From: an uncultured Pelagibacteraceae bacterium
GTDB taxonomy: Bacteria > Pseudomonadota > Alphaproteobacteria > Pelagibacterales > Pelagibacteraceae
Direction: 5' to 3'
NCBI GenBank assembly: GCA_902569055.1
Contig: CACFSU010000006.1
Span: 1 to 58,802 of the forward strand
DNA: 58,802 bases
Below, piece after piece: positions 1,078-19,414 of the stretch. Under the pieces are notes generated by a model, which made no database searches, was not told the DNA's origin, and was given only the letters and a program-made list of their open reading frames with translations. The position numbers and the translations under genes were made by a program. Position 1 is the first letter of the stretch. Each line of letters starts with the position of its first letter.

Positions 1078-2475
1078 TTAATCAACTCTTTGAAATAAGA
1101 CCACAAAAATTGTTCTTATTAAAATATAAACATCCAACATTAAATTCCAGTTTTTAATATAATATAAATCGTGTTGAAAACGTTTATCCATTGCGCCTTC
1201 TTTATTTGTCGGACCTCTGAGACCGTTAACTTGAGCCCAACCTGTAATACCTGGTAAACATTTGTGCCTTTGCATAAAATTCTTTACCTCTTTAGAATAA
1301 AATTTTGTATGTTGAGCCATATGAGGTCTGGGTCCAACTATTGACATATCACCTTTCAAAACATTAAAAAACTGAGGAAGCTCATCAATACTTAATCTTC
1401 TAATAATTTTGCCAACTTTTAAAAGTCTTGAATCTCCAGATTTTACTTGAATCGATTCATTAATATTCTCCATTTTTTTTAAAGATCTTAATTTTAAAAT
1501 ATTAAATGATTTTCCATCCCAACCAGTTCTTTTTTGTTTAAAAAATATAGGAAAACCGTCTTCTATAATTATACAGATAGAAAATATTAAAATTATAGGT
1601 AAAGAAATTAAAATAAAAAATAAAGAAAATATTTTATCCATTAAGGTTTTTAATAAAAAACTTGTGCCATAAAAAGGAGAAAATGAAACATTATAAAAAT
1701 CAAACCCTGACTCACTATCTAAGGCCTCAACAAATTTAAATTTAGACTCTGGTTGAATTAATCGACAATCAACAGAAAAGTTTAAAAACTTATCAATCAA
1801 ATTTTCAATATGAGATTGAGTTTTAATTGAAGAAATTATCCAAACTTGTCCTATAGAATGATGATTTAAAATTTGACCAAAGTTTTCATTTAATCCAAAA
1901 CTAGGAATTCCATAAAAATTTGTATCTTTTTTATTTAATTGATCTATCGCTATTAAACATTTTATTATTGAATTACTTACTTTTTTTGGAAATTTTTTAA
2001 TAATGTTTTGACACGAAATAGAATCTCCAATTAAGAGTATATTTCGCTGGATAGAATTTGATTTTACTAACTGAGCATAAATAAAATCAAATACTACTTT
2101 GAAAAAAAGAAATAAAATAGTAGATGTAAATATATTTGTAAAAAGCCATATACGTGAATAATTATCAGTTGTTTTAAATATTACTGTTACTAAAATTACA
2201 AAAACAAATGTTTGAATAAGTAATATAAATTCTACTCTAAGCCATTGAACCGTTCCTTTAACATACCTTTTTTCTTTAGTTTTAAAAATTGATAAAATAA
2301 AAAAAATAATTACGATGAATATAGATGCTTCTATATATTTATCTGTTAAATTCCATGTTTCATTCCTAATAAAATAAGAAAAAGAACAGCTAAAATATAG
2401 AACTAAACTTAAAAATAAATGATAAAATAAAAGAAATGACTTGTCGTCTCTTTGAAATACTTTTTCAAATAACAT
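1078..2475 (-). CDS. Polyprenyl-phosphate sugar-1-phosphate transferase (WcaJ/ExoY-like)
   Basis: A 465-residue integral membrane enzyme of the exopolysaccharide polyprenyl glycosylphosphotransferase family. It starts repeat-unit assembly by moving a hexose-1-phosphate from a UDP-sugar to undecaprenyl phosphate on the inner face of the cytoplasmic membrane. The N-terminal part has about four or five hydrophobic segments and a CoA-binding-like central region. The catalytic bacterial sugar transferase domain fills roughly residues 275-465, with a membrane-inserting hairpin followed by FFKQKRTGWDG, SIDELPQFFNVL, GDMSIVGPRP and LPGITGWAQVNG. These motifs are diagnostic. It follows wzc by 39 bases and precedes the phosphatase by 5, so it is operonic. 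Glucose or galactose is the likely substrate; GalE is encoded at 27-28 kb. Confidence 0.93.
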   Translation of the reverse strand: MLFEKVFQRDDKSFLLFYHLFLSLVLYFSCSFSYFIRNETWNLTDKYIEASIFIVIIFFILSIFKTKEKRYVKGTVQWLRVEFILLIQTFVFVILVTVIFKTTDNYSRIWLFTNIFTSTILFLFFKVVFDFIYAQLVKSNSIQRNILLIGDSISCQNIIKKFPKKVSNSIIKCLIAIDQLNKKDTNFYGIPSFGLNENFGQILNHHSIGQVWIISSIKTQSHIENLIDKFLNFSVDCRLIQPESKFKFVEALDSESGFDFYNVSFSPFYGTSFLLKTLMDKIFSLFFILISLPIILIFSICIIIEDGFPIFFKQKRTGWDGKSFNILKLRSLKKMENINESIQVKSGDSRLLKVGKIIRRLSIDELPQFFNVLKGDMSIVGPRPHMAQHTKFYSKEVKNFMQRHKCLPGITGWAQVNGLRGPTNKEGAMDKRFQHDLYYIKNWNLMLDVYILIRTIFVVLFQRVD

Positions 2476-2514: not shown

Positions 2515-4701
2515 TTAACTATAGCTTTTATATTTATTATAATATCCACCGTACTGATAGTAGCCATAATAGCTTGCTTTAGATGTATCTAGGTCATTAA
2601 AAATTAATCCATCGACTTTTACTTTTACATTAATTAATTTTTTCAACACTGATTTAATTCCAACTAATTTTGTAACGTTAGATCTCACAATAAGAAAATT
2701 ATGATCAGTAGCCTGACTTATAAACAATGTGTCACTTACTGGTTGTATAGGTGGTGTATCTATTATTACATAGTCGTATTTTTTTTTAAGAATATCAAAA
2801 AAATCTTTAAGTTTATTTGTTGATGTCAAATCAGTTAAATCTGATCTTCTTGTGCCTGATGTCATAACCTCAATTTCTGATCCTGGTAGTTTCATTAAAC
2901 AATCACTCAATTGAGTCTTACCTTGAATAATATCACTAAATCCAACTTTAGGAGCTTCATCTACCTGATTTGTTTTACTTAATACTGATGGTCTTCTGAT
3001 ATCCGTTTCAATTAGAAGTACTTTTCCAATTTTAGAAAATGCTAAAGCAGTATTTAAAGAAACAGTAGTTTTCCCTTCTCCAGAGTAGGTTGAGCTTATT
3101 AATATTGATTTATTTTTTTGATATTTGGCAACTAATAAAGTTCTAAGAGTTCTTATACTTTCTGAAAATTCAGAGTTAACATCTTCAATAAACATTTGTG
3201 ATAAATGGTATCCTTTATCCAATTTTTTAACTTTAGGAAGTGTTGCTAATACTGGAATATTTAAAACATCTAAATTTGAGGGTTCAATAACAGTATTACT
3301 ATTAAATTCTAAATAAACCAAACCTCCAAAAAGTATAGCAAATGATAAAAGGTAAAAAATAATCGTTATTTGGGTAATATTCGGAGCTATAGGTAATAGC
3401 GGTAAAAGAGCATTTTGAATTATCCTAACATTAGAAGATTGGAGCTCTTTTACTTCATTTGTTTCTTTCATTCTTTGAAGGAATGTTTCGTAAATTCTAT
3501 TATTAGTTTCAACTTCACGTACATATTGTTGCAAAGCAACATCTTTTTCTTCTAATACTTGTAGTTCAGATTTCGCTTTTTCCAGTTCTAATTCACTTGA
3601 CTCTATAAATCCTTTTAAATTTGATAATTCAAAAGCAGCTGCCGCAATATTTTCTTCTAAAATTTCCTTGAGTCGATTATCTAAATTTTGCTTTGTTTTC
3701 ATGGCTTTTTTTACTTTTGGATGTTCGTCCGTATAAATAATTTGTAATGACTCGATATTATTATTCGTTGAGTTAATATTTGTTCTTATAGAATCTACTT
3801 CTTTTTTATTTCTTAGATCTGCGATTGCTAAAAGCTCATCAACATTTCCTTCGGCAAGCTTTATTGAAGTAAGATCATTTTGTTTTTTTTGTAATTCTCT
3901 ATTAGCATCAATAATTCTTTGAGACACAGATTTTATTTGATCTATTTTAAGATCTTTAATATCACCAATATCAATTAAATTATTTTCTTTTTTATAGTCT
4001 AGTAATTTTTGTTCAGCAATTTCCATTTGTTCTAAAAGTTTTGCTAACCGTACATTAATTTGTTCATTTGCATAATTTGTAACTTTTACTTTAGTGTCTA
4101 CATCATATTTTAAGTAAGCTTCAATAACTTGTTCTAATAAAAATTTTGCCAACTCAGCACTACCTGAATTCATAGTAATATTAACAACATCACTATTTCT
4201 TATTTGTGTTACTGCTAAATTTTCTTTTATATATTTTTTATAATTTGCAGTTAAATCTTTTGTTTTAACAGGATCTTTTTTTTTATTAAAATTGAAAAAT
4301 AAAAAATTTTTTGCAAAATAATTTTTAGGCAATTTTTTATAAAGTAAATTTATTTGATCTATTTTTTTATTATCTTTTAAAATAGAAGATATAACTTCGT
4401 CACTCTCTATAATTTGAATTTGGTTATTTATATAATTAGAATTACTAAAACCTGTTCTTCTTCCTTCACCATCATAAACTTCTTCTATATTTACAATATT
4501 CTTAGTAGATTCTTCTATTACTAAAGTTGCTTGGCTTTGAAATGTAGGATTTATGTTTAAAGATATAAACAGGCCCAATAATCCAAATAAAATTGGTATT
4601 AAAAAAAGTATTCTTTTATATTTTAGTAATATTATCCAATAATGGGCTAAATTTAATTGCTCATTAATGTCACTTATTTTATCTAAAAAACTTTTTTCCA
4701 T
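2515..4701 (-). CDS. Wzc-like polysaccharide co-polymerase / BY-type tyrosine autokinase
   Basis: A 728-residue inner-membrane protein that controls polymer length and export with Wza. The order is: Wzz-type N-terminus with a membrane helix near residues 28-50, a long periplasmic coiled-coil/GNVR region, a second membrane helix near 440-460, then a cytoplasmic P-loop kinase. Walker A reads STYSGEGKTT near residue 540, followed by ETDIRRPS (Walker A') and VIIDTPP (Walker B). The last 22 residues hold nine tyrosines, the expected autophosphorylation cluster. It is fused full length, as in proteobacteria, not split as in Firmicutes. It heads a minus-strand unit with the initiating sugar transferase and a PPP phosphatase. 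A small inverted repeat (4722-4742) lies just upstream of the start. Confidence 0.94.
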   Translation of the reverse strand: MEKSFLDKISDINEQLNLAHYWIILLKYKRILFLIPILFGLLGLFISLNINPTFQSQATLVIEESTKNIVNIEEVYDGEGRRTGFSNSNYINNQIQIIESDEVISSILKDNKKIDQINLLYKKLPKNYFAKNFLFFNFNKKKDPVKTKDLTANYKKYIKENLAVTQIRNSDVVNITMNSGSAELAKFLLEQVIEAYLKYDVDTKVKVTNYANEQINVRLAKLLEQMEIAEQKLLDYKKENNLIDIGDIKDLKIDQIKSVSQRIIDANRELQKKQNDLTSIKLAEGNVDELLAIADLRNKKEVDSIRTNINSTNNNIESLQIIYTDEHPKVKKAMKTKQNLDNRLKEILEENIAAAAFELSNLKGFIESSELELEKAKSELQVLEEKDVALQQYVREVETNNRIYETFLQRMKETNEVKELQSSNVRIIQNALLPLLPIAPNITQITIIFYLLSFAILFGGLVYLEFNSNTVIEPSNLDVLNIPVLATLPKVKKLDKGYHLSQMFIEDVNSEFSESIRTLRTLLVAKYQKNKSILISSTYSGEGKTTVSLNTALAFSKIGKVLLIETDIRRPSVLSKTNQVDEAPKVGFSDIIQGKTQLSDCLMKLPGSEIEVMTSGTRRSDLTDLTSTNKLKDFFDILKKKYDYVIIDTPPIQPVSDTLFISQATDHNFLIVRSNVTKLVGIKSVLKKLINVKVKVDGLIFNDLDTSKASYYGYYQYGGYYNKYKSYS

Positions 4702-4814: not shown

Positions 4815-5279
4815 TTAGTTTTCTATAATAATACTACCTACCTCATTACTAAATCTTGGAATATTTCTTAAATAATACAATTTAAGTGATTTATTTTTTT
4901 TTTTATTATTTTTTGAGAGTACAAATAAATTTATAAAATTTTTTTCAAACTCAATTTTACTGCTATTATTATTAATTTGATGAAGTATTTTTACTTCCCA
5001 ATATGTGTAATCCAATGCAGACTTTTTTTCAGTTTTACTTATTAGGTTATAAAGTTTTTTGCTACTAATACTTTTATTTTGGATATCTTTCTTTTTAAAA
5101 ATCAATGGCTTAACAAAAAAAATAGAGTGCTTATAAGGTAAATAATTGATAGTTTTTGAAAAATAACCCTCAATTTTAGGACTATAGGATATTATTAATA
5201 TAGAGAAAATATTATATAAAGAGATTATAATTAAAATACTAATTAATAATCTTTTTATGTATTTATTAATAAAAGACAC
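4815..5279 (-). CDS. Hypothetical membrane-anchored protein (GTG start proposed)
   Basis: The open frame extends to an ATG at 5405, but that would overlap about 150 bases of the divergent FecR gene. The GTG at 5279 gives a 154-residue product beginning VSFINKYIKRL, followed at once by a hydrophobic helix of about 20 residues (LLISILIIISLYNIFSILII). The rest is a polar, Lys/Asn-rich extracytoplasmic domain ending VGSIIIEN. Even so its start overlaps the divergent gene's start by about 23 bases. I recognise no family. Position between wzc and the giant surface protein suggests an export accessory; that is inference. A single-pass topology is what can be seen. Confidence 0.55.
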   Translation of the reverse strand: MSFINKYIKRLLISILIIISLYNIFSILIISYSPKIEGYFSKTINYLPYKHSIFFVKPLIFKKKDIQNKSISSKKLYNLISKTEKKSALDYTYWEVKILHQINNNSSKIEFEKNFINLFVLSKNNKKKNKSLKLYYLRNIPRFSNEVGSIIIEN

Positions 5280-8200
5280 ATTAAATTTTATCAAAATAAA
5301 GTTAATTTTACCATTAATTTTATTAACTTTATTTTTATATAGTGAAACTTTAGCCGAAGAAAAATTTGTAGGATTTATTGATACACTTGAAGGCGATGCA
5401 TTCATAATTAAAGATGAAGATGAAATTAAATTAAAAGAATTTGATCAAATTTTTATACAAGACAAAATAAGAATTGAAATTGGTGCATCGATTATTGTTT
5501 CTTTTATTGATAACTCTCTCCTAACTTTAAAAAACGAATCTGAATTTATAGTGCAAAAATTCGATCAGTCATCTAAGCCCTCATTTATTTTATCTATACC
5601 TAAAGGTAAGTTTTCATTTGAATCTGGATCCATAGCAAAAAATAAGAATGGATTGATGAAAATTAAGCTTTCTGGATTAGATGTAAAACTAAATGGTACT
5701 CTTATAGTTGGTCAAAATTTTGGAGGTAGTAAAAATGTATCACTTGTGGAAGATTCAACAGGAAATTTAGGAACACTTGAAATTGGTATTGAAGGAAATA
5801 ATGAAACAAAAATTATTTCTGAGAGTGCAACTGGAGTTACTCTTAACTTTACTGATGAAGAGCAAGAAGCCTTGATTGCAGGCAATATTGCAGCAATCAC
5901 TACTTCTGTAACAGCAATAGAAGAAACACAATTATCTGAAGAAGAAAGAAATGAAATAGTTGAAGAAATGAAAGAAGTGACAATAAAATCTACAACTAAA
6001 AGCGAAGAAAACATTGAAAGAGCTATAACAAAACAACTGGCTGATGGAACAATTCCTGATGCTAATGGAGATGGTGTTACCGACTTAGCTGATGTTGAAG
6101 CTTATAAAGCTGAATTATTAGGATTAAAAAAATCTAAATTAGATTTTGTAGTTGAACAATCAAAAGAGGATTTAAGTTTATTATCAGATATTATTGTTAA
6201 TTCAGACTCTGATCAATCAATGCAATTAATGGAAAATATGATGGAAACTAATTCTGAAAGCGCATCATTGCTAATGACTGAAATAATAGAACAAGAATTT
6301 GATATTTTTTCACATGTTGCATCTGCTGAAACTGGAAATTTTGAAGACTTAAGAGAAACAATTGTTACTGAAATGATTCAAGATGGTAGTGACTTTGTTG
6401 CAGATACGATGGCTCAGATTATGGCAGTAAGTGACACTGAAATGGGTTCATATTTGATGAATGAAATAACAAATATTGAACAATCAGCTGAAAATGAAAG
6501 AAATTTAGCTATGGATGTACTCGCAACCTTTACAGAAGTTGCTTCTGAAAAAATGGATAGTTATATGCAAAATGATCCTTCTATAATGACTAGTTTTGCT
6601 GAAATTGCTTTTGCAAATGCTGATGAAAATGATGCTGAAATTATAGCAGATATGATGCAACAAACTGATGGAAAAAATTCAGCTTATTTAATGAGCACTA
6701 TGATGGCTGCTAATGATGAGATAATCGGAAATGTTTATGAAAATTTGGCAGAACAAGAATTTGATATTTTCAATCATATAGAAACTGCAAAAATGGATAT
6801 TATTGATATTGATGCTGGTCCATCCGTATCAATATCTACTTCAGATCCTTTATTGCCAACAACTGATTCAGATATATTTACAGCTGATAATAATCAAATT
6901 TTAAATGAAGAAAATTTTATTGACAATTTAAAAGGAGAAATTTTTACCAAGATTATTGAAACTAGCAATCAAACTGCAGCAGAAATGACAGCAGAACTAA
7001 TGATGAATAGTGAAGGTGATAGTGCAAAATTTATGATGGAAACTATGATGGACAGTAATCCTGAAATAATTGGTGAAGTGATGGAAAATTTTGTGGAAGA
7101 AGATTTTGATATATTTGATCATTTTGAAGATACTACTATTGAGGAACCAACTGAGATTACATCTTTGGATATACCTTTAAATAGTGAAATAAATGATCCC
7201 TCTGTGAGTAAAAATAAAAAAGGTTTAACTAAAGAAGAAAGAATAGCTGCTAAAGCAGAAAGAAAAGCTGAAAAAAGAAGAATTAAAGCTGAGAAAAAGG
7301 CTGCTAGGTTAGCAGCAAAAGCTGAAAGAAAAGCAGCTAGAAAAGCTGCTAAACTTGCAGCAAAACAAGCAGCTCAAGAAATAGGTGTTACTGAATCGTT
7401 TGAAACTAACCCTGACCTTCAAGAATTAAAAACTGAAGTTTTTCAAGACATGATGACTTACTCTAATGAAAGCACAATGGAAACTATGGCCCAATTAGTT
7501 GTAACTGCTGATGAGTCCACAGCCACACTAATTTTTGAAACAGTTGTAACTGAACAACAAAGTATGTCCACTGATGATACTGCTTCAGAAAACAATTTTG
7601 CTTTAGATTTGATGAGTAATTTAAGCAATGTTGACTCTAGTATAGTTACTGAAATGTATGAAACTCAAGAGGATCTTGTTGACAACATGATGAGTACTGC
7701 TTTATCAAATATTTCATCGGAAGACTCAGAAGCTATTGCCAATATAATATCTTCCTCAGGAAATGACGAAATAAATGAAATAGTTTTTAATAATATAGCT
7801 TCTTCCAATGATCAAAATTTAACAAGTAATGTTTTTTCATCATTAGCCAATACCGAAGATGGAGCGGAGGCTATAATTGCGATAGCTTCAACAAATCAAA
7901 GTCTTTATGAAAATATAGCTCAAGATATTGATCCAACTATGACAGCTGCGTCTTTATATGCTAATACAACTGCAGAATATACTACAGCTGCTGCAACAGC
8001 GGCAACAACAACTAATACAGATACAACTACTTATGAAGCCGGTGGTATATCTTGGACAACCTACCCCATGACAACAGGTACTTATTCTACAAGCACTTAT
8101 ATAAGTATAAACGGAACAGCAACTTCTATGAATGGAGTAAATTATTCAGCATCAGATTTACCTGATGGATTAACTTTAGATTATACAAGTGGTTTAATTT

Positions 8201-10407
8201 TTGGAACCCCAACAAGTCCTGGAAGTTGGAATTCAACAATTACTGCAACAGACATGATGGACTCCAATACTTTTGCAACAGCTAGTTTAAGCTTTGATAT
8301 TATAGAGGACACTAGTGGAGGCTATGACAGTGGTGGTGGAACTAGTTTTTCATTCATGTCAACTCCTTATCCTCCAGCAACTCTAACTGTAAATAATTCA
8401 ATTACACCAATATTTCTTTATACTACTGGTGGAGTTGGAAATATTAATTTTACTGCAACAGGTTTACCAATGGGTTTGTTTATATCAGGCGATCAAATTA
8501 GTGGATCTCCAGATACTCAAACCTTTTCATCAAGTAGTGTAAATATTATTGCTACAGATGAGGATGGAAATACTGCAAGTACAAATATTACCTTTCCAAA
8601 AGTAGATTCTGCTAGTGCTGGAGGAGGAGGAAGTGCAACTGGACCAATATGGACAACATATCTTTATGGACCTACAACATTAACTGTTGGTACGGAAATG
8701 ATGGACATGTTTTTGGATGCTACAGGAACTGGATCTTTAAGTTTTACTGCATCAAACTTACCACCAGGATTATATGTTGACGGACAATATATTAAAGGTT
8801 CACCAACAATGGAAAATATGTATTCAGTTAGCGTAATGATTACAGCAACAGATGATAATGGTTCACAAACTAAATATGTTAACTTTCCAAAAGTAGATAC
8901 CAGTGGTGGTGGAACCGTGGATTGGAACACTCTTGCCGCAGAATTTCCATCCACTTTAATTGTAGATGATCCTATTTCTTCAGTAACATTATCTGCAACG
9001 GGATCAGGTGTAATTACTTACGATTATTCTGGGACTTTACCTGAAGGTCTATTTTTAACTGCTGGAATATTATCCGGAACTCCAACTACAGAATATGAAT
9101 TTACAAGAAACGTAACATTCACAGCAACAGACTCAGATGGAAATACAGGTGATTTATTAGTTACCTTTCCTCAAGTAGATGGTGATGGCGGTGATGATGA
9201 TAGTGAGGTTACATGGAACACAACTTCTGCAGATATAACTTCTACTTTAGGTGGTAGCTTGACTGTCGATACTGCAATCAATTCTGTAACATTAAGTGCA
9301 ACAGGAAATGGTACTATAACTTACAGTCAAATAGGGTTACCACCTGGATTAACTTTGACAGCTGGATTAGTTTCTGGAACACCGACAACTCAAGATCCTA
9401 CTGGATCAACAGTTACTTTTACTGCAGAAGATGATGAAGGTAACACTGAAGATTTAGTTGTTTCCTTTCCACCTATAAGTGCCAGCTCAGGCGGTAGTGT
9501 AACTTGGTTTACTTCACAAGCTGATTTTCCATCTACTATGACTAAAGGAACAGCAATTTCCTCTATAACTTTAAGTGCTACAGGTAACGGAGCTATAACA
9601 TATACAGATGACGGTAATTTACCAAATGGAATTTCTTTAACAGCAGGAATAGTTTCTGGAACTCCTCAGAATGTTAGAGCTACAGAGACTACTGTAACTT
9701 TTACTGCTGAAGACATTGATGGTAACTTAGAGACCTTGACAGTTTCATTTCCAATAATAAGTGCTGCAAGCGGTATTAGTAATCCTAACTGGGTTACTAC
9801 CCCAACAACTTCAGCAAGTTATACTACAAGTTCAAATATAAGCATAAGTGCAGAAGCAGTTTCGGTCCCAGCAGCAAATGGAGTAATTTATTCTGCTTCA
9901 AGTTTGCCTCCAGGTGTAACTTTAGATACAGCAACTGGGCTTATTTCTGGAACTCCTACAACTGCTGGAACTTATACGTCAGAAATAAAAGTAGAAGATG
10001 CAACTGATAGTACTTTTCAAATAACTGAAACTTTAACATTCATGGTTTCTGCTGGAGGAAGTGAAACTTTAACTTTTGATACCGCAGAAACTTTACCCTC
10101 TGTTGATGCAGGAGAAAGTATATCTGAAACTATTCAAGCTACTGCAAGTTTAGGTTCACCTATTACTTATACTTTTATTTCAGTAAGTAATACAGGAAAT
10201 TCAGATGATACTTTAGCAGGAACTGGGATAACTATTACTGGAAATTTAATTTCTGGTATAGCACCAAGTTTATTTAATGCAGCAACATATTCTTTTGAAT
10301 TTCAAGTCTCAATAAATGCTGGTGCTACAACTAATAATAAGACTTTCAAGATGGATATATCACAAGATAATACATGTGTATCTCCAACTAATAATATTTG
10401 TATTTAA
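5257..10407 (+). CDS. Giant FecR-domain secreted protein with Ig-like (He_PIG) repeats
   Basis: A 1716-residue exported protein. Residues 1-33 form a signal peptide (hydrophobic LPLILLTLFLYSETLA). A FecR-type domain follows at about 40-150, where such proteins often have peptidoglycan- or sugar-related roles. Residues 267-285 contain an EF-hand/dockerin-like DANGDGVTDLADVEAY. A Met/Glu-rich helical region (about 310-625) carries three copies of a motif ending E(Q/E)(E/D)FDIF-x-H. Residues 651-708 are an almost pure Lys/Arg/Ala/Glu helix. From about 930 onward come seven Ig-like units marked by LPxGL...SGTPTT, spaced near 97 residues. The C-terminus has two Cys (CVSPTNNIC). Sited between wzc and wza, it is probably a surface adhesin or polysaccharide-associated protein; function is inferred from architecture only. 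The next gene starts at its stop (TAATG). Confidence 0.85.
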   Translation: MYLLIKDTLNFIKIKLILPLILLTLFLYSETLAEEKFVGFIDTLEGDAFIIKDEDEIKLKEFDQIFIQDKIRIEIGASIIVSFIDNSLLTLKNESEFIVQKFDQSSKPSFILSIPKGKFSFESGSIAKNKNGLMKIKLSGLDVKLNGTLIVGQNFGGSKNVSLVEDSTGNLGTLEIGIEGNNETKIISESATGVTLNFTDEEQEALIAGNIAAITTSVTAIEETQLSEEERNEIVEEMKEVTIKSTTKSEENIERAITKQLADGTIPDANGDGVTDLADVEAYKAELLGLKKSKLDFVVEQSKEDLSLLSDIIVNSDSDQSMQLMENMMETNSESASLLMTEIIEQEFDIFSHVASAETGNFEDLRETIVTEMIQDGSDFVADTMAQIMAVSDTEMGSYLMNEITNIEQSAENERNLAMDVLATFTEVASEKMDSYMQNDPSIMTSFAEIAFANADENDAEIIADMMQQTDGKNSAYLMSTMMAANDEIIGNVYENLAEQEFDIFNHIETAKMDIIDIDAGPSVSISTSDPLLPTTDSDIFTADNNQILNEENFIDNLKGEIFTKIIETSNQTAAEMTAELMMNSEGDSAKFMMETMMDSNPEIIGEVMENFVEEDFDIFDHFEDTTIEEPTEITSLDIPLNSEINDPSVSKNKKGLTKEERIAAKAERKAEKRRIKAEKKAARLAAKAERKAARKAAKLAAKQAAQEIGVTESFETNPDLQELKTEVFQDMMTYSNESTMETMAQLVVTADESTATLIFETVVTEQQSMSTDDTASENNFALDLMSNLSNVDSSIVTEMYETQEDLVDNMMSTALSNISSEDSEAIANIISSSGNDEINEIVFNNIASSNDQNLTSNVFSSLANTEDGAEAIIAIASTNQSLYENIAQDIDPTMTAASLYANTTAEYTTAAATAATTTNTDTTTYEAGGISWTTYPMTTGTYSTSTYISINGTATSMNGVNYSASDLPDGLTLDYTSGLIFGTPTSPGSWNSTITATDMMDSNTFATASLSFDIIEDTSGGYDSGGGTSFSFMSTPYPPATLTVNNSITPIFLYTTGGVGNINFTATGLPMGLFISGDQISGSPDTQTFSSSSVNIIATDEDGNTASTNITFPKVDSASAGGGGSATGPIWTTYLYGPTTLTVGTEMMDMFLDATGTGSLSFTASNLPPGLYVDGQYIKGSPTMENMYSVSVMITATDDNGSQTKYVNFPKVDTSGGGTVDWNTLAAEFPSTLIVDDPISSVTLSATGSGVITYDYSGTLPEGLFLTAGILSGTPTTEYEFTRNVTFTATDSDGNTGDLLVTFPQVDGDGGDDDSEVTWNTTSADITSTLGGSLTVDTAINSVTLSATGNGTITYSQIGLPPGLTLTAGLVSGTPTTQDPTGSTVTFTAEDDEGNTEDLVVSFPPISASSGGSVTWFTSQADFPSTMTKGTAISSITLSATGNGAITYTDDGNLPNGISLTAGIVSGTPQNVRATETTVTFTAEDIDGNLETLTVSFPIISAASGISNPNWVTTPTTSASYTTSSNISISAEAVSVPAANGVIYSASSLPPGVTLDTATGLISGTPTTAGTYTSEIKVEDATDSTFQITETLTFMVSAGGSETLTFDTAETLPSVDAGESISETIQATASLGSPITYTFISVSNTGNSDDTLAGTGITITGNLISGIAPSLFNAATYSFEFQVSINAGATTNNKTFKMDISQDNTCVSPTNNICI
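8040..10075 (+). repeat. Tandem Ig-like (He_PIG-type) repeat array inside the FecR protein
   Basis: Seven related units are visible in the translation, each ending in a variant of LPxGLxLxxGxxSGTPTT. The markers fall near nucleotides 8160, 8466, 8760, 9040, 9340, 9620 and 9905, a period of roughly 290 bases. Units 2-6 also share the linker ATDxDGNT...F(P)xVD and begin with a W(T/N)T motif. The first and last units are closer to each other (TYSTSTYISI versus SYTTSSNISI) than to the middle ones. Such domains build extended stalks in adhesins. Confidence 0.75.
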
Positions 10408-11771
10408 TGATAATAAGTAAAAATTTTTTACAAAACTTATTTTTATTAATTTTAGCCATTAGCGTTAGTTTTAACGCAAGTATTAATCCTTTAATGACTC
10501 AAGTTTCCTCTATAGGATTTATCTTAGTTTTTTTATTTTGTTTTAAAAATAATCAAGTTTTAGAAATGATTAAAGAAAATTACGAAAGAAATAAAATTTT
10601 TTTTATTTTTTTTTTTATCTATATATCTTTTTTAATATTACAAATAACTCCCCTACCACTTAATTTAATTAAAATTATTGCTCCCAATAACTATGATTTA
10701 TATACTTCTATAAGGATTGACAAACAATTATGGTCATTAAGCGTAGATCCAAGTAGTTCATATATTAGTATGTTAAATTGTATTAATTTCTTTATAATTT
10801 TTTTAACCTTTCCAGTTTTGTTTAGTAGAAGTAAATATTTAATGAAATTTTTATTTTTCTTATGTGTATTAGGATTTTGTCACGCAATATTTGCGACTTA
10901 TTGGATGTTAATAGGAAATCCATCAAATTTTTTAATAGAAAAAATTCATTATTTGAGAGCATCAACTGGCCTTTTTGTAAATAGATCAGTTTTTGGAACG
11001 TTTTTATTTTTATGCGCATATTCTGGTCTTTTTTATATTGTTATTTTTTTTCAAAAAAATCAAATTTCTAATTTTACTTTTCCTCATCAAATTAAAAGTA
11101 AAATTCTTTTTATAAGAATTTTTATTATTTTTTTAAGTATAGGAATTTTAACAACTTGGTCTAGAGTAGTTAACTTTAGTTATATTTTAATATTGTTATC
11201 TTTTTTATTTTATTCGAGAATATCCTTTAACAAATTCGTTAACCCTTTATCAATAATAATAATTTTAATACTGATTTTTGATGTTTTGGTTATGGCAATT
11301 TTTTTTGGTAATGCCAGATTAGTAGAAAGACTTGTAGAAACTCCAATACTTAAAGATTTTATAAGACTAAACTTAATTTCTTTTGGGTTCGAACAATTTA
11401 AAAATTTTTGGTTATTTGGTTACGGAAATGGAGCTTTTGGACAAATTTTTAAAATATTTTATCCATTTCAAGATAATTCTTTCAATTATTTAGCAGAACA
11501 CGCTCATAATGACGGAATTGAACTTTTGGGAGAAATAGGAATTTTAGGATGTTCGATACTATTACTATTATTTATATCTTATTTTAAAATAATATTAAAA
11601 AACATTCATCAATCAAGACAACTTGCTAGATTTACTTTATTTTCTTTATTATTAATTATCTTATTTATTCAAAGTTTAGTAGATTTTTCATTACATGCTC
11701 CTGGTATACTAATTTTAATCACAAGTATTTTATCTATAGGTCTAGTAAAATTTAAAAAAAATATTAATTAA
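10407..11771 (+). CDS. O-antigen ligase / Wzy polymerase-like membrane protein (copy 1)
   Basis: About 454 residues from the ATG at 10407, which shares its A with the preceding TAA (TAATG), implying translational coupling to the FecR protein gene. A TTG nine bases upstream is possible but less likely. The protein has some ten to twelve hydrophobic helices and the family's long periplasmic loop with GYGNGAFGQIF followed by EHAHNDGIELLGEIGI. The His/Asn/Asp cluster at that point is the O-antigen ligase (Wzy_C) signature. Such proteins either polymerise lipid-linked repeat units or ligate glycan to an acceptor at the periplasmic face. With a second homologue at 12,958, the two may split these roles, or this one could glycosylate the preceding protein; both are inference. 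Confidence 0.85.
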   Translation: MIISKNFLQNLFLLILAISVSFNASINPLMTQVSSIGFILVFLFCFKNNQVLEMIKENYERNKIFFIFFFIYISFLILQITPLPLNLIKIIAPNNYDLYTSIRIDKQLWSLSVDPSSSYISMLNCINFFIIFLTFPVLFSRSKYLMKFLFFLCVLGFCHAIFATYWMLIGNPSNFLIEKIHYLRASTGLFVNRSVFGTFLFLCAYSGLFYIVIFFQKNQISNFTFPHQIKSKILFIRIFIIFLSIGILTTWSRVVNFSYILILLSFLFYSRISFNKFVNPLSIIIILILIFDVLVMAIFFGNARLVERLVETPILKDFIRLNLISFGFEQFKNFWLFGYGNGAFGQIFKIFYPFQDNSFNYLAEHAHNDGIELLGEIGILGCSILLLLFISYFKIILKNIHQSRQLARFTLFSLLLIILFIQSLVDFSLHAPGILILITSILSIGLVKFKKNIN

Positions 11772-11787
11772 TTACTTAATATTTCCA

Positions 11788-12906
11788 TTAATCACCACCT
11801 CTAAGTATATCCTCATCTTGACTTATAATATACCAGTCATCCTGCTCAGCTATATAAGGTTTGTAAGTTTTAAATAATGTCTCTGATGGAGTTAAAAGAC
11901 TTATTACATTATTCCATTTTACCAATTTAGTAGATGGTATAAAAACTATATCATTTGGTAAAATATAAAAATTATTTGCTGATATAAAAGCAGCAGGATT
12001 ATTTAAATTAATTGAATAAATATCAATATGCAAAAATTTAGTTAGATCCTCTCTTAATACATAGATGTTTTTTGTTTTTGCAGTAGCTTTATTAATTCCT
12101 TTTGTAGCTAATAATTCAGTTAAAGTTAAGTCTTTATAGACAGAAATAGGTCCTGAGGTAGTAAATTCTCCAAAAGCATAAGCTTGATCAGTATCAGACT
12201 CCGATACATGTAGTACGTCGTCTTTTCTCAAAAAAATATCTAACTCAGTATTATTTTTATTTAAAAGCTCATAAAGATCAATTTCAAAAACCTCTTCACC
12301 TCTTCTTAAGAGTGCTGTTTTAACATAACTTTTTTGATCTTTTACGTACCCTGCCTTAATAAGAGCATCAAGTATCTTTAATGGTTGCTCTGAAAGAAGG
12401 ATGGCCAATGGACGATTAATTGCACCAGTTATATATACATAAGCGCTATTATATTGTTCTATTTTAACTATAGTTTCAGGTTCTTGATAATATGTTTTTA
12501 ATACATCATTAATAAATGCTTGAGCTTCTTCCTTAGTTTTACCGTCTATTACTACTTGACCAACATAAGGAATTGTCACGTCTCCGTTCGGACTTATTGT
12601 ATAAGACCCATCAATATCATCAATATCTGTAATTGATACATTTATAACATCACCGGAACCAATTGAATAATAATATTTATTTTCTTTCACTAAATTAGAA
12701 AGATTTTTATCTTTTTCTTTTTTTATATCCTCAAATTTAGGAAGTGATGCTGTATTGATTTCATTTAAATTATGAAATTTTAAAGTTACACCTCTTTGTT
12801 TTAAACCTAATTTATTAGGGTTAGAACTTTTTGGTTCGCTTTTAAAACCAGTTGAATTAGTGCAACTTGTTATAAATAAAAATAAAAATATTATTCTTAA
12901 ATTCAT
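11788..12906 (-). CDS. Wza-like polysaccharide export outer-membrane lipoprotein
   Basis: A 372-residue lipoprotein. The signal peptide MNLRIIFLFLFITSC ends in a lipobox with Cys15. The polysaccharide export domain follows near residues 80-170, with YYSIGSGDVINVSITDIDD, SPNGDVTIPYVGQVVIDG and a SLBB-like repeat (VYITGAINRP). Another SLBB-like segment (YAFGEFTTSGPISV) lies beyond residue 230. The family forms the octameric channel through which capsule or exopolysaccharide leaves the cell, docked to Wzc. It is convergent with the upstream ligase gene (16-base gap) and divergent from the next polymerase-like gene (51-base gap). The C-terminus lacks an obvious long amphipathic helix but ends in an acidic tail. 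Identification is firm. Confidence 0.93.
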   Translation of the reverse strand: MNLRIIFLFLFITSCTNSTGFKSEPKSSNPNKLGLKQRGVTLKFHNLNEINTASLPKFEDIKKEKDKNLSNLVKENKYYYSIGSGDVINVSITDIDDIDGSYTISPNGDVTIPYVGQVVIDGKTKEEAQAFINDVLKTYYQEPETIVKIEQYNSAYVYITGAINRPLAILLSEQPLKILDALIKAGYVKDQKSYVKTALLRRGEEVFEIDLYELLNKNNTELDIFLRKDDVLHVSESDTDQAYAFGEFTTSGPISVYKDLTLTELLATKGINKATAKTKNIYVLREDLTKFLHIDIYSINLNNPAAFISANNFYILPNDIVFIPSTKLVKWNNVISLLTPSETLFKTYKPYIAEQDDWYIISQDEDILRGGD

Positions 12907-12957: not shown

Positions 12958-14190
12958 ATGGGTAGTTTAAAAATAAAATTAATCCCAATTATAATTTTAT
13001 TATCTGGCCCTCCTGCATTCAGAAAAACTGAAAATACTAATAATACATTAACTCCAGAGGTGGATATTTGGATAATAATTCAAATAATCGCATACCTAGT
13101 AGCCTTTTTTTTAATGTTAACCCATATTAACAAACAATTTAAATTTAAAAAAAATATTTTTGATTATCTTATTTTTGCAAATTTTTTTTCTCTTTTTGTT
13201 TCATGTATATTATCTAATGATATTGTAACTAGTGCCGCATATACTTTTTTATATTTTATAGGTGTTTATTTTTATTATTATTCAAAAAATTATTACTTTG
13301 ATATCAATGAACAATCTATTGTTTATGTCTATATATTAATTAGAAATATTTTTTCTATATTACTTTTATTAGTTGCATTTTTTTATATTTTTACAGAAGG
13401 TTATGTTATTTCAGGATTAAGAATTTCTGGCGGAAGAATTGCCAATGTCCTAATAATATGTCCAATAATTTTTCTAATAAGTTGTTTTATTTACTCAACA
13501 AAATATAACAATTTACTTAACAAAATTTGTATAGTTTCATCTTTATTCTTTCTTTTTTTTGCCTATTCAAGATCTACTTGGTGGTCTACTCTTTTTTTAA
13601 CATTTTTTCTTTTTATAAAATTATATTTTTTTAATTCTAGTAACTCTAAAAATGTAAATATTAAATTTTTTTTTCATTTCTTAGTTTTTTCATTGATTAT
13701 AATTATGATTTTATATTTTTCTGAAATAATGAATTTTTTAACTAGAGGACAAGATGATGTATTTCATCTTAGTGGAAGAGATATAATTGCAGAATGGGTT
13801 TTTAGTTATATGAGTGAAAATTTCTTTGGTCTTGGAGCTGGAACTGGATTCAAAAGAATTTTTCCTACTTTAATATATTATTTTGATCCTTTAGAAATGG
13901 ATCCAAGGAATATAGGTACAGCACATAATGCATATTTAGAAATTTTTGTTTCTGGTGGATGGATATCTTTTGTAAGCTACACTTTGTTATCAGTATTCCC
14001 ATTGATCTTCTTTATAAAAAATTTTAAAAAAATTTTAAAATCAAATTTCTATCTTTTGTTTCTTCTTTTTGTTTTAGTAATTTCAAATAATATGGTGAAT
14101 GCTACATCCACGATGCCTTCCTACTTAGCTTTTTCATATTCGTGGCTTATTTTGGCTTTAATCAACATTTATATTTACTCAAAAAAATGA
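12958..14190 (+). CDS. O-antigen ligase / Wzy polymerase-like membrane protein (copy 2)
   Basis: A 410-residue polytopic protein with about ten to twelve hydrophobic helices. The periplasmic loop carries GLGAGTGFKRIFPTL and then GTAHNAYLEIFVSGGW, the family's H-N-x(2)-E/L-x-G arrangement. I read it as the Wzy polymerase or ligase acting on undecaprenyl-linked repeat units. Its TGA overlaps the ATG of the GT4 gene (ATGA at 14187), so the two are translationally coupled, and a third gene follows with the same junction. It shares fold features with the protein encoded at 10,407 but little direct sequence, so the two are not a recent duplication. Which one is polymerase and which ligase cannot be settled from sequence. 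Confidence 0.85.
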   Translation: MGSLKIKLIPIIILLSGPPAFRKTENTNNTLTPEVDIWIIIQIIAYLVAFFLMLTHINKQFKFKKNIFDYLIFANFFSLFVSCILSNDIVTSAAYTFLYFIGVYFYYYSKNYYFDINEQSIVYVYILIRNIFSILLLLVAFFYIFTEGYVISGLRISGGRIANVLIICPIIFLISCFIYSTKYNNLLNKICIVSSLFFLFFAYSRSTWWSTLFLTFFLFIKLYFFNSSNSKNVNIKFFFHFLVFSLIIIMILYFSEIMNFLTRGQDDVFHLSGRDIIAEWVFSYMSENFFGLGAGTGFKRIFPTLIYYFDPLEMDPRNIGTAHNAYLEIFVSGGWISFVSYTLLSVFPLIFFIKNFKKILKSNFYLLFLLFVLVISNNMVNATSTMPSYLAFSYSWLILALINIYIYSKK

Positions 14191-17182: not shown

Positions 17183-18166
17183 TTGTTAACAAAAAAATCA
17201 AAAACTGTAATTTTTCTTTTAAAAGAATTTAATAAAAAAAATATCCCGTATTGTATTGCTAGAAATTATGAAAACTTTCCTAATTTTAAATCAGATTTAG
17301 ATATTTTTTATATAAATAAACTAAATTTGATAAAAAAAATATTTATTAATACGGCTAAAAAATTTCATTGGGATTATTTAATATACGATGAAAATAAAAG
17401 TAAAAATTTTTTAGATCAAAATAAAATTGAGATATTTTATTTTTATGATCGTAAAAAAGAAAATTTTCTACAAATTGATTTTTTTAGATCAATGCTAGTA
17501 TTTGGTGTTCCTTATTTTAAATTTAAAAATGAAAATATTGAAAAAATAAAAAAAAAATTTAATATTTTGCCTAGAATAATTTCTAAAACTTACCATGTAT
17601 TTCAAATTGCAAGTTTGTTGCCAATAAACACTAATAATAAAAAAAAAATAATAAAATATAAAACAAGATTTTTAAGTTTAAAAATTAAAAATACTTATAA
17701 AAAAAATGTCTTTTTTGAGAATTTCTTATTAATAAAAATTCAAAAAACTTTAAAACTTAATAAATTAAAATTTTTTAACGCATTAATATTTATTTATAAA
17801 TTACAAATTTTTTTAAAATATTATTTAAAAAATCCTTTAAAGATTTATGAATTTTTTTTCAGAATTTACGAATATTATCTTTTGTTTTTTAAACAAAAAT
17901 CAGGTTTTAAAATTTCTATAATAAATAAGAAACATATAATAAAAAATGCTGAAGAGACTTTGAATAGGTTTAAAAAATTAAAAATTATAGATAATTGGAA
18001 TTATAAATCTAAAATAAACTTATTAAATAGATTTAAATTTTTAGAAAGACGAAATGTGCTTTTAAATATAGATGATAAAACCTCTAAAACTAAAAATTTT
18101 AAAAAGATCTTTATAAATATTCTTATTAAACAAAATAAACTTTTATATAAAAAGAAAATTTTATAA
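17183..18166 (+). CDS. Nucleotidyltransferase-like protein of polysaccharide clusters
   Basis: A 327-residue Lys/Phe-rich protein, apparently starting with TTG at 17183 since no ATG fits upstream. The N-terminus reads PYCIARNYENFPNFKSDLDI; the S-D-L-D-I/F element resembles the G-S-x-D-x-D metal motif of MNT-type nucleotidyltransferases, though with Ser replacing Gly-Ser. The remainder has no motif I recognise. In other bacteria such domains occur next to, or fused with, thymidylate-kinase-like domains in polysaccharide clusters, and a separate kinase of that type is encoded at 20,329. I therefore treat them as possible partners. The 3' end overlaps the convergent flippase gene by six bases. 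Function uncertain. Confidence 0.55.
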   Translation: MLTKKSKTVIFLLKEFNKKNIPYCIARNYENFPNFKSDLDIFYINKLNLIKKIFINTAKKFHWDYLIYDENKSKNFLDQNKIEIFYFYDRKKENFLQIDFFRSMLVFGVPYFKFKNENIEKIKKKFNILPRIISKTYHVFQIASLLPINTNNKKKIIKYKTRFLSLKIKNTYKKNVFFENFLLIKIQKTLKLNKLKFFNALIFIYKLQIFLKYYLKNPLKIYEFFFRIYEYYLLFFKQKSGFKISIINKKHIIKNAEETLNRFKKLKIIDNWNYKSKINLLNRFKFLERRNVLLNIDDKTSKTKNFKKIFINILIKQNKLLYKKKIL

Positions 18167-19414
18167 TTTTTCTTTTTTTAAATAGTATCTGTAGCCATAA
18201 TATGTATAACTCGCAATTATAATATTAGAAAACAATAAACCTGCTATTACTCCTTTAATTTCAAAATATGAAATTATAAATTTTGATCCTACAATTGCAA
18301 AAATACTTGATAATAGGAAAGAAATAAAAATAGGTTTAGTTTTTCCTAAAGTTCTAAGTCCATATACAAATGGGAAATGTATAAATGCCAATGGAAAAGT
18401 AAGAGAAATAAACATAAGTACTTGATAGTGAGATGCTACATCTGCTCCATAAAACATTTTTAGTAAGAATTCAGAAAAAATAATTATAAAAAAAGTGATA
18501 CTTGATACAGCTAAAAAACCTTTTAATGCAAATTTTTTTAAATAAATATTCATTTCTTTAAAACTTCCAGATATAAATTTTTTACTAGTTTCTCCTGGAA
18601 TAAAATTTTCCAGTGATTGTAAAATTAGGTTAGTAATTCCAAGTAAGGTCTGACATGCTCTAATAATTCCAAGCACGAAAGGACCCAATATTATACCAGC
18701 GTTTATCACCCACAGGTTTCCTGAGAAGAATTGGGCTAAGGAGGTTAATAACATCCATTTAGATATATTCCAATTTTCCCTAATAGACTGAGAAATATTA
18801 CTTAATTTATAATTTAATGAAAAAACAATCGGTAAAATAATTATCGAACCTATCGAAAAAAAAATAACTATAGACCAGAAAATTATTCCCAAATCCAATT
18901 TGTTCAAATGCTCTAAATAAATAATGAAAGCAATTAAAGATAAATAAGAGATAAAATCTGATATTATAACTCTAATATATAATTTTTTACTATAAAGAAG
19001 TCTTCGTAAAAAATTATGTAATTGTGTAATAAAAATCAATAAAGAAAAGGATAAATAATAATTGGCAATAGGATAAGAAGAGATATGTTTACCAAAGTTT
19101 TTTAAAATAAAAAAAATTAAAAAAAATATTATTAAAGAAAAAACTAATTGTTGCAAAAAAATTCCTCCATAAAAATAATTAATATTAGAATTTTTTTGTT
19201 TAGGCGCATTAGTTAACATTGGTGAAATAATATAAGAAAGCTGAACTGAATTCATAAACATTATAAAAATCCAAAAAAAACTAAATACACCAAAAATTTC
19301 TATACCGAGGAATCTTAAGATTAAAATACTTAATAAAAAATTACTTAAGCTAATAATAGCCTGATCTACCAACCCATATAAATAGCTTGGTAATTTAAAA
19401 ACAGATTTCAACAT
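18161..19414 (-). CDS. Wzx-like polysaccharide flippase (MATE/MOP superfamily)
   Basis: A 417-residue protein that is almost wholly hydrophobic, with about 12 membrane helices, typical in length for Wzx/PST-type flippases. The N-terminal segment has the family's pattern of a Phe-rich first helix followed by FLGIEIFGVFSFFW. The central QTLLGITNLILQSLENFIPG matches helix 7-8 regions of polysaccharide exporters. It would flip undecaprenyl-linked repeat units to the periplasm, where the Wzy-like proteins act. It is the only flippase visible in the window, and together with Wzy, Wzc and Wza it completes a Wzx/Wzy-dependent pathway. The start is divergent from the methyltransferase gene (74 bases between). 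Confidence 0.85.
   Translation of the reverse strand: MLKSVFKLPSYLYGLVDQAIISLSNFLLSILILRFLGIEIFGVFSFFWIFIMFMNSVQLSYIISPMLTNAPKQKNSNINYFYGGIFLQQLVFSLIIFFLIFFILKNFGKHISSYPIANYYLSFSLLIFITQLHNFLRRLLYSKKLYIRVIISDFISYLSLIAFIIYLEHLNKLDLGIIFWSIVIFFSIGSIIILPIVFSLNYKLSNISQSIRENWNISKWMLLTSLAQFFSGNLWVINAGIILGPFVLGIIRACQTLLGITNLILQSLENFIPGETSKKFISGSFKEMNIYLKKFALKGFLAVSSITFFIIIFSEFLLKMFYGADVASHYQVLMFISLTFPLAFIHFPFVYGLRTLGKTKPIFISFLLSSIFAIVGSKFIISYFEIKGVIAGLLFSNIIIASYTYYGYRYYLKKEKL

Follow-up and report, generated by a model that had tools for sequence, protein, structure and literature searches.

According to PMC12645811, TfpO (PilO) and TfpM are enzymes that act on the C-terminal residue of pilin, and the glycotag of PglS, an enzyme with PglL_A and Wzy_C_2 domains, sits between two Cys; for all three enzymes, the substrate is often encoded nearby. 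In PMC3643930, pilO and the adjoining pilin gene have the same orientation, the pglL and comP genes are adjacent in A. baylyi, and for PglL, a Pro or a constrained loop or turn next to the acceptor Ser is suggested to be favorable. Here, we describe a gene pair in a 58,802-nucleotide stretch of DNA from an uncultured Pelagibacteraceae (SAR11) bacterium (contig CACFSU010000006.1 of assembly GCA_902569055.1; hereafter, the whole stretch is called the window). The first gene encodes a giant protein of 1716 amino acids (aa) with a FecR-type head, and the second, directly downstream, encodes a protein of the Wzy_C (O-antigen ligase/polymerase) family. We tentatively propose, from sequence comparisons, that the pair is a dedicated glycan-acceptor giant with its own O-oligosaccharyltransferase in a Wza-export locus.

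A 2022 study (PMC8931226) proposed that SAR11 and Prochlorococcus make high-molecular-weight membrane glycoproteins with capsule-type glycans via a PglL-like enzyme; the acceptor protein is not named in the part of that paper available to us. Our literature search found no work on FecR proteins in connection with SAR11 polysaccharide, on O-antigen ligases in a hypervariable region of Pelagibacter, or on FecR domains together with O-antigen ligases and exopolysaccharide. Papers on SAR11, O-antigen, and Wza deal with other subjects, as judged by title and the start of the abstract, and FecR, capsules, and polysaccharide are not mentioned in the accessible part of PMC7318151.

The giant open reading frame (ORF) at 5257..10407 (+) was confirmed as real: It is no chance ORF because 23 further loci carry the giant, with neighbors kept to the limits of the contigs, except in L118. 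A first-pass annotation had placed it between wzc and wza, and the pair is indeed flanked by a wzc-like gene for a chain-length/tyrosine autokinase (2515..4701, −) and a wza-like polysaccharide export gene (11788..12906, −), both assigned by Pfam and NCBIfam. A small divergent ORF for a single-transmembrane (TM) protein (4815..5405, −; its start probably lies near 5294, judging from homologs) separates wzc from the giant. A TAATG overlap joins the giant to the downstream gene, which starts at ATG 10407 and encodes 454 aa (10407..11771, +); Pfam and alignments place its product, described earlier as ligase-like, in the Wzy_C family (E = 1.2e-9).

Relatives of the giant were found by an alignment-based scan, while a scan of genome contigs with the giant sequence alone returned none. 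There are 24 distinct giant loci, all from SAR11: the window, L103 to L123, and, from two single-contig genomes, L046 (G043) and L049 (G035) (L041, L042, L043, L044, L045, L047, L048, and L050 were taken to be L106, L108, L107, L111, L116, L117, L114, and L123, respectively, and counted once). They form two clades, with 26 to 32% cross-clade N-terminal identity to the window; clade 1 consists of the window, L103 to L107, and L108. The gene order is kept, with the small divergent membrane ORF on one side of the giant and the Wzy_C gene on the other, followed by wza on the opposite strand. Relative to the pair, wzc lies on the left in clade 1 and on the right in clade 2; beyond wzc, most loci have a WcaJ-like gene. 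The L108 locus (L042) contains no wzc, and glycan genes lie between its enzyme gene and wza.

A Wzy_C gene directly follows the giant in 21 of the 22 loci with a readable next gene. These comprise 15 complete enzymes, two C-terminal fragments (L042 and L155), and four contigs that end in the first codons of the enzyme (L109, L113, L116, and L120); L121 is cut off inside the giant, and L122 extends 19 bases past the stop, too few for the following gene to be read. When 397 genomes of the order were assessed, nine carried both giant and enzyme, one carried the enzyme only (G206, with the enzyme cut at the contig start in L153), and none carried the giant only (Fisher 1.6e-17). The giant is therefore rare (9 of 397 genomes). 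These counts use matches at E ≤ 4.6e-19 for the giant, out of 34 genomes with any match; the remaining 25 matches are weak (E ≥ 4.9e-8), and the 21 of them with loci are other FecR proteins, whereas G194, G386, G245, and G143 were not inspected. For the enzyme, matches above 100 bits were counted (10 of 29 matching genomes), and G315 (35 bits, an enzyme end at a contig end) was left out; the 397 genomes were taken as the same set in both scans, the lists not having been compared in full. In a chosen sample, Poly_export (wza) was found in 7/7 giant-positive versus 0/8 giant-negative genomes. Some Wzy_C match was present in 14 of 15 SAR11 genomes, including seven of the eight giant-negative ones. 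The first-pass annotation had proposed that giant and ligase form a coupled system and had asked whether the two stay together in related genomes. With near-complete adjacency and co-occurrence, and with an export signal that can be read by eye, the coupled-system idea survives the two findings named in advance as fatal to it, rare adjacency or no export signal. The pair is real, conserved, and more specific than could be seen from the window alone.

In all 23 giants with a readable C terminus (of 24), a Ser followed by Pro or Ala is found near the end of the protein. This Ser is third-last in 17 giants, 13 of which have the sequence N-V/I-S-P-N, and eighth-last in six, where it lies within C-V/I/L-S-P-x-N-N-I-C. 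In the window, the tag is CVSPTNNIC (residues 1707 to 1715; 10375..10401, +), with Ser1709 as the candidate acceptor; the two tag Cys are the sole Cys of the entire protein both here and in L103. Of the 23 giants, 22 have V, I, or L before the Ser, and L155 has A. The Ser is encoded by TCN in 21 cases and by AGT in two, and therefore it is the residue that is kept, not the DNA. As a background, [VIL]SP occurs in 20 of 29,776 interior 12-mers of the same giants, and the looser [VIL]S[PA], needed to include the tail of L049, in 1202 (4.0%). When 15 genomes were searched for the clade-2 tail pattern outside the giants, it turned up solely in three giant-positive genomes, each time at the C terminus of the same kind of glycosyltransferase (NISPN at G296:C1:155409, G373:C7:14839, and G035:C1:1000973; no signal peptide by eye), which is probably a coincidence; in the giant-negative genomes, it was found in none of eight.

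The tail is kept although the middle of the giant is replaced among loci, where it consists of immunoglobulin (Ig)-like, PKD, or helical units and brings the total length to anywhere from 854 to 1827 aa. Cross-clade BLAST similarity at E ≤ 1e-3 extends to residue 873 of the window giant, 906 of L103, and 910 of L104, with none beyond; at E ≤ 10, 13 of 183 rows lie past residue 940, the best at 0.004. The tail has thus outlived stalk replacement. The conserved parts of the giant are the N-terminal head and the tail, not the Ig units. Conservation of the C-terminal Ser-Pro while the middle varies suggests that the enzyme may attach a sugar chain to that end.

Alternatively, the giant could be an adhesin or matrix protein that binds the cell's own or a foreign glycan via Ig, PKD, or beta domains, with the ligase pairing a mere operon convenience. 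In line with this, He_PIG or PKD units were found in 6/6 clade-1 giants scanned whole (Pfam He_PIG in the window, L103, L104, L105, and L107; PKD in L106), while the C-terminal fragment of L108 (L042) has beta repeats by eye and no relevant Pfam match. In addition, giant length changes by stalk repeats. Complete clade-2 giants are 854, 855, 1009, 1014, 1174 (two), 1179, 1337 (five), 1498, and 1606 aa long, a series that suggests whole-unit steps. Yet none of the nine clade-2 giants scanned has an Ig or PKD match, helical repeats being present instead, so Ig binding cannot be the common function, and adhesion would leave both the tail and the strict pairing unexplained. We consider this explanation distinctly unlikely. 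The earlier suggestion of either an adhesin or a glycosylated acceptor is thus partly supported: The acceptor half gains from the conserved Ser-Pro tail, and the adhesin half gains only the stalk-like, repeat-variable build.

The head of the giant bears on the same question. The protein begins with a Sec signal peptide (residues 1 to 33; 5257..5355, +) that ends in LLTLFLYSETLA, with EE after the cut, according to a by-eye reading of the sequence and its homologs. It is followed by a FecR-fold beta domain (residues ~33 to 240; 5353..5976, +). Pfam FecR (residues 69 to 164) scores 18.8 bits in the window giant (E = 0.0023), below the cut-off of 24; the cut-off was passed by 12 of 15 giants scanned and missed by the window giant, L103 (23.6), and L112 (no match at E = 0.01). 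The fold is evident in a confident structure model of residues 30 to 515 [predicted local distance difference test (pLDDT) of 88.9], which matches PupR (6ovk, Z = 14.6) and the anti-sigma protein 4m0h (Z = 13.8); matches ranked under the FecR ones (Z < 9) were not used. The head is also weakly similar to the cell-surface anchoring domain 5ix9 (Foldseek probability of 1.00, TMt of 0.73, E = 0.045), a point in favor of an adhesin. A search aimed at phage found no phage relatives of the head.

The other segments listed in the first-pass annotation were located as well. An EF-hand–like motif, DANGDGVTDLADVE (residues 268 to 281; 6058..6099, +), is kept in every one of 18 aligned sequences save L108. 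In the model, a helical-repeat solenoid comes after the FecR head (6085..6801, +) and holds two of three FDIF repeats, the motifs being at residues 348, 502, and 617. A Lys/Arg/Ala-rich helix (residues 652 to 710; 7210..7386, +; 68% K/R/A) precedes about seven He_PIG Ig-like units with approximate boundaries (8080..10176, +), as indicated by seven Pfam stretches (E = 1.3e-39) and GTP/GSP motifs.

FecR heads occur on other alphaproteobacterial giants too. From 88 genomes of the class with FecR matches (the window genome G000 and the SAR11 genome G017 among them), 20 FecR loci were read, 19 of them outside SAR11. By the A2 profile, none of the 20 has a Wzy_C neighbor in the stretch covered, some stretches ending inside the giant. 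Neighbors, typed here by length, TM count, and N-terminal letters and not by Pfam, resemble a type I secretion system (T1SS) in five loci (L203 to L205, L211, and L212), again consistent with adhesion, and CHASE2 proteins in three (L214 of SAR11, L217, and L219); those of the other loci were of no assignable type. RTX/LapA-type T1SS adhesins lack a Sec signal peptide and have T1SS ABC/HlyD genes alongside. The SAR11 giant shares with LapA/MpAFP-type RTX adhesins and alphaproteobacterial FecR giants its size, its repeat stalk, and a FecR-like or anchoring N-terminal head. Unlike the RTX adhesins, it appears by eye to have a Sec signal peptide, its C terminus is different, and its gene is immediately flanked by the small ORF and the Wzy_C gene rather than by T1SS genes (the flanks were not all scanned with Pfam).

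Ordinary SAR11 FecR proteins (L008 and L020 to L040) are either ~190 aa long or ~430 aa long with a Lys/Arg-rich tail. Both kinds adjoin a ~440-aa ORF, and the ~430-aa kind also a CHASE2-like ORF (by eye); no Ser-Pro tail was seen in them where the end is readable, and no ligase neighbor was found. The giant may derive from proteins of this kind, and one could accordingly regard it as a FecR/CHASE2 envelope sensor. CHASE2-SpoIIE genes do occur immediately upstream of clade-2 cassettes, as confirmed with Pfam for L044 and L046 and as judged from a similar N terminus for four more, but no CHASE2 gene was recognized beside clade-1 cassettes, which were not Pfam-scanned, and a sensor would leave the stalk, the tail, and the pairing unexplained. 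We consider a sensor role very improbable.

Wzy_C is the only Pfam domain of the enzyme, and PF04932 is above the cut-off in the window protein and in 7/7 homologs scanned. Among 13 aligned enzymes, the 55 invariant columns include R237, R320, and H367, and H365 is nearly invariant. Like WaaL and Wzy, the enzyme passes the Wzy_C cut-off, and its R320 and HAH motif (365 to 367) align with the solved structure 7tpg. The spacing of R237, R320, and H367 also seems to resemble that of R215, R288, and H338 in E. coli WaaL, as given in PMC3643930. Unlike for WaaL/Wzy, the constant partner of the SAR11 enzyme is a protein gene, not a lipopolysaccharide-core locus, and SAR11 has other Wzy_C genes.

As with TfpO/PilO or TfpM and pilin, the genes of the putative acceptor and of the ligase-family enzyme are adjacent in the same orientation and form a dedicated pair; as with TfpO and TfpM, a Ser lies at or near the C terminus and the enzyme has Wzy_C alone by Pfam. 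Unlike in those systems, the SAR11 acceptor candidate is an 854- to 1827-aa FecR-headed stalk and not a pilin, the Ser (a putative acceptor) is third- or eighth-last and not last, the locus contains wza and wzc, and the enzyme matches no NCBIfam model. PglS-ComP of Acinetobacter likewise has a Ser between two Cys, as does the clade-1 tag CVSPTNNIC, but PglL_A and Wzy_C_2 are unmatched in the SAR11 enzyme and the giant is not pilin-like. Our proposal that the enzyme loads a glycan on the tail of the giant is made because the SAR11 pair has, as sequence features, all of those cited above for dedicated O-oligosaccharyltransferases: a Wzy_C protein encoded beside the putative acceptor, a Ser near the C terminus or between two Cys, and a Pro next to that Ser. 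If the acceptor reading holds, the pair would represent a dedicated acceptor and O-oligosaccharyltransferase with a giant non-pilin stalk, the activity of the enzyme being a prediction.

The Wzy_C protein could, instead, be the polymerase of the locus. The tail would then be a docking or sorting tag for the export machine (Wzy, Wzc, Wza, or another partner), and the giant a non-covalent periplasmic or surface scaffold, which fits the presence of wza in all seven giant-positive genomes tested. We consider this somewhat unlikely, since a second multi-TM non-flippase polymerase candidate is present in 6/6 glycan blocks inspected (window, G020, G332, G406, G043, and G373), leaving the giant-adjacent enzyme free to act as a ligase, and a Ser-Pro that is third-last or enclosed by Cys is reminiscent of known O-glycosylation tags. 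In the window, the second candidate is a Wzy_C protein encoded at 12958..14190 (+; Pfam E = 1.4e-13).

Several observations nonetheless weigh against the acceptor-transferase proposal. Among the six second candidates, only that of the window clearly passes Pfam Wzy_C. The G373 candidate is weak (E = 0.0011), those of G020, G332, and G043 have no relevant Pfam match, and that of G406 (L225:1311-2570, G406:C2) scored 31.4 to 31.8 bits against a cut-off of 31.7 in the genome search and was unreported by hmmscan. The window enzyme matches no NCBIfam model at E ≤ 0.01 and is therefore not filed as a TfpO/TfpM member; its structure model is poor (pLDDT of 66), and the fold search gave no match at E ≤ 0.001. 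One tail reads SAN (L049) and another ASPS, and L118 has the tag with a different ORF following the giant. Relatives of the enzyme in the class occur without the giant in all 20 loci read (19 outside SAR11; 52 other genomes matched), and a wzc-like gene lies in the stretch at 15 of these loci, as would suit a polymerase; the enzyme ORF itself was recognized in 19 of the 20 (not in L097). Since neither the class FecR loci nor those of the enzyme relatives contain a giant/Wzy_C pair, the pairing is known here only from SAR11.

The strongest objection comes from four clade-2 loci, L111, L115, L117, and L046. In their six pairwise comparisons, the heads of the giants (~300 aa) are 93 to 99% identical and the enzymes 46 to 64%, with 64 to 75% identity for wza and 72 to 87% for wzc. 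The exchange boundary, as read from these identities, falls between giant and enzyme. The enzyme thus appears to be exchanged together with the glycan genes, behavior expected of a repeat-specific polymerase, and it is mainly for this reason that our confidence in a dedicated transferase stays below one half. The pattern is also compatible with a constant acceptor and a swappable glycan block. No such contrast is seen between L114 and L049 (giant head 88% and enzyme 79% identical), and in clade 1 the enzyme (61 to 98%) is conserved about like the head (47 to 99%) or more. The four loci also bear on hitch-hiking, in which transfer of the island as a single unit would be the sole reason for the pair being together. 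A point in its favor is that the island is rare and its distribution nearly all-or-none, but adjacency and tail persist despite the exchange boundary at the giant/enzyme junction, making this explanation quite improbable.

Layout, pairing, wza co-occurrence, and a tag kept through replacement of the middle are features of the loci themselves; what we infer from them is that the enzyme acts as a transferase and not as a polymerase, which residue is the acceptor, and that there is exposure at the surface and anchoring. In the proposed dedicated transferase system, the giant would be secreted to the periplasm by means of its signal peptide. The FecR-type head and the first helical part would form the shared region, and the Ig-like or helical repeats a stalk of variable length. 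The downstream Wzy_C enzyme would act as an O-oligosaccharyltransferase, moving a lipid-linked glycan made by the WcaJ, glycosyltransferase, and Wzx genes of the locus onto the tail Ser, and the giant would thereby carry or anchor the polysaccharide of the Wza/Wzc export locus. The FecR head may hold the giant in the envelope, the leads being the weak 5ix9 match and the FecR heads on other giants. A bolder and rather doubtful extension is a capsule-type proteoglycan, in which an interchangeable glycan block carrying its own transferase would load any of many glycans onto a constant Ser-Pro tag, the stalk serving as a covalent anchor. Such a covalent giant-stalk capsule anchor was not met in the literature searched.

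The remaining features concern the rest of the locus and its relatives. The window genome, G000, comprises 957,075 bases in 39 contigs and is 75% complete. A WcaJ-like initiating sugar transferase (1078..2475, −; Pfam) is encoded beyond wzc, and the glycan block contains a Wzx-like flippase (18161..19414, −; weak, with MatE/Polysacc_synt below the cut-off). Also in the glycan block is a GINT1_N domain (glucosamine inositolphosphorylceramide transferase 1, N-terminal) at 22930-24609 (−; E = 1.1e-35). The small divergent ORF is present in 20/20 loci with a readable 5′ side; its window copy has no Pfam or NCBIfam match, and kinship with ~230-aa proteins beside enzyme relatives elsewhere was rejected, as neither hidden Markov models nor hhalign supported it. 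The contigs of L109, L113, L116, and L120 end 49 to 123 bases past the giant stop, inside the enzyme start, a sign, taken together with L118, that there may be a repeat or a variable junction at the giant/enzyme boundary. In L107, wzc is present as two ORFs (552 and 139 aa; 7269-9456), reflecting a broken gene or an assembly error. The L042/L108 contig (G038:C21, 16,743 bases) begins and ends within the giant, and its two ends have a 28-residue stretch in common, which could be due to circular permutation, tandem duplication, or the collapse of a repeat.

A link to phosphonates was also considered. As in the phosphonoglycoprotein proposal, at least in the accessible part of PMC8931226, capsule-type glycans would be carried on high-molecular-weight SAR11 proteins. 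Unlike in that proposal, pepM is above the cut-off in only 1 of 19 genomes (G043) and lies outside the cassette, and the link was dropped. In that genome (L158; G043:C1, around 785000-820000), pepM (365 bits) is ~25 kb from one Wzy_C gene and a weaker one; the first of these is weakly like TfpM (E = 0.0014, far under the cut-off).

SAR11 bacteria are among the most abundant in the ocean, and what holds their surface polysaccharides is poorly known. This pair provides candidates for both the acceptor and the enzyme, along with a single residue on which to focus. If the proposal is true, the few dedicated O-glycosylation substrates would be joined by a non-pilin giant, and the arrangement of a swappable glycan and a constant tag could matter for escape from phages and grazers.

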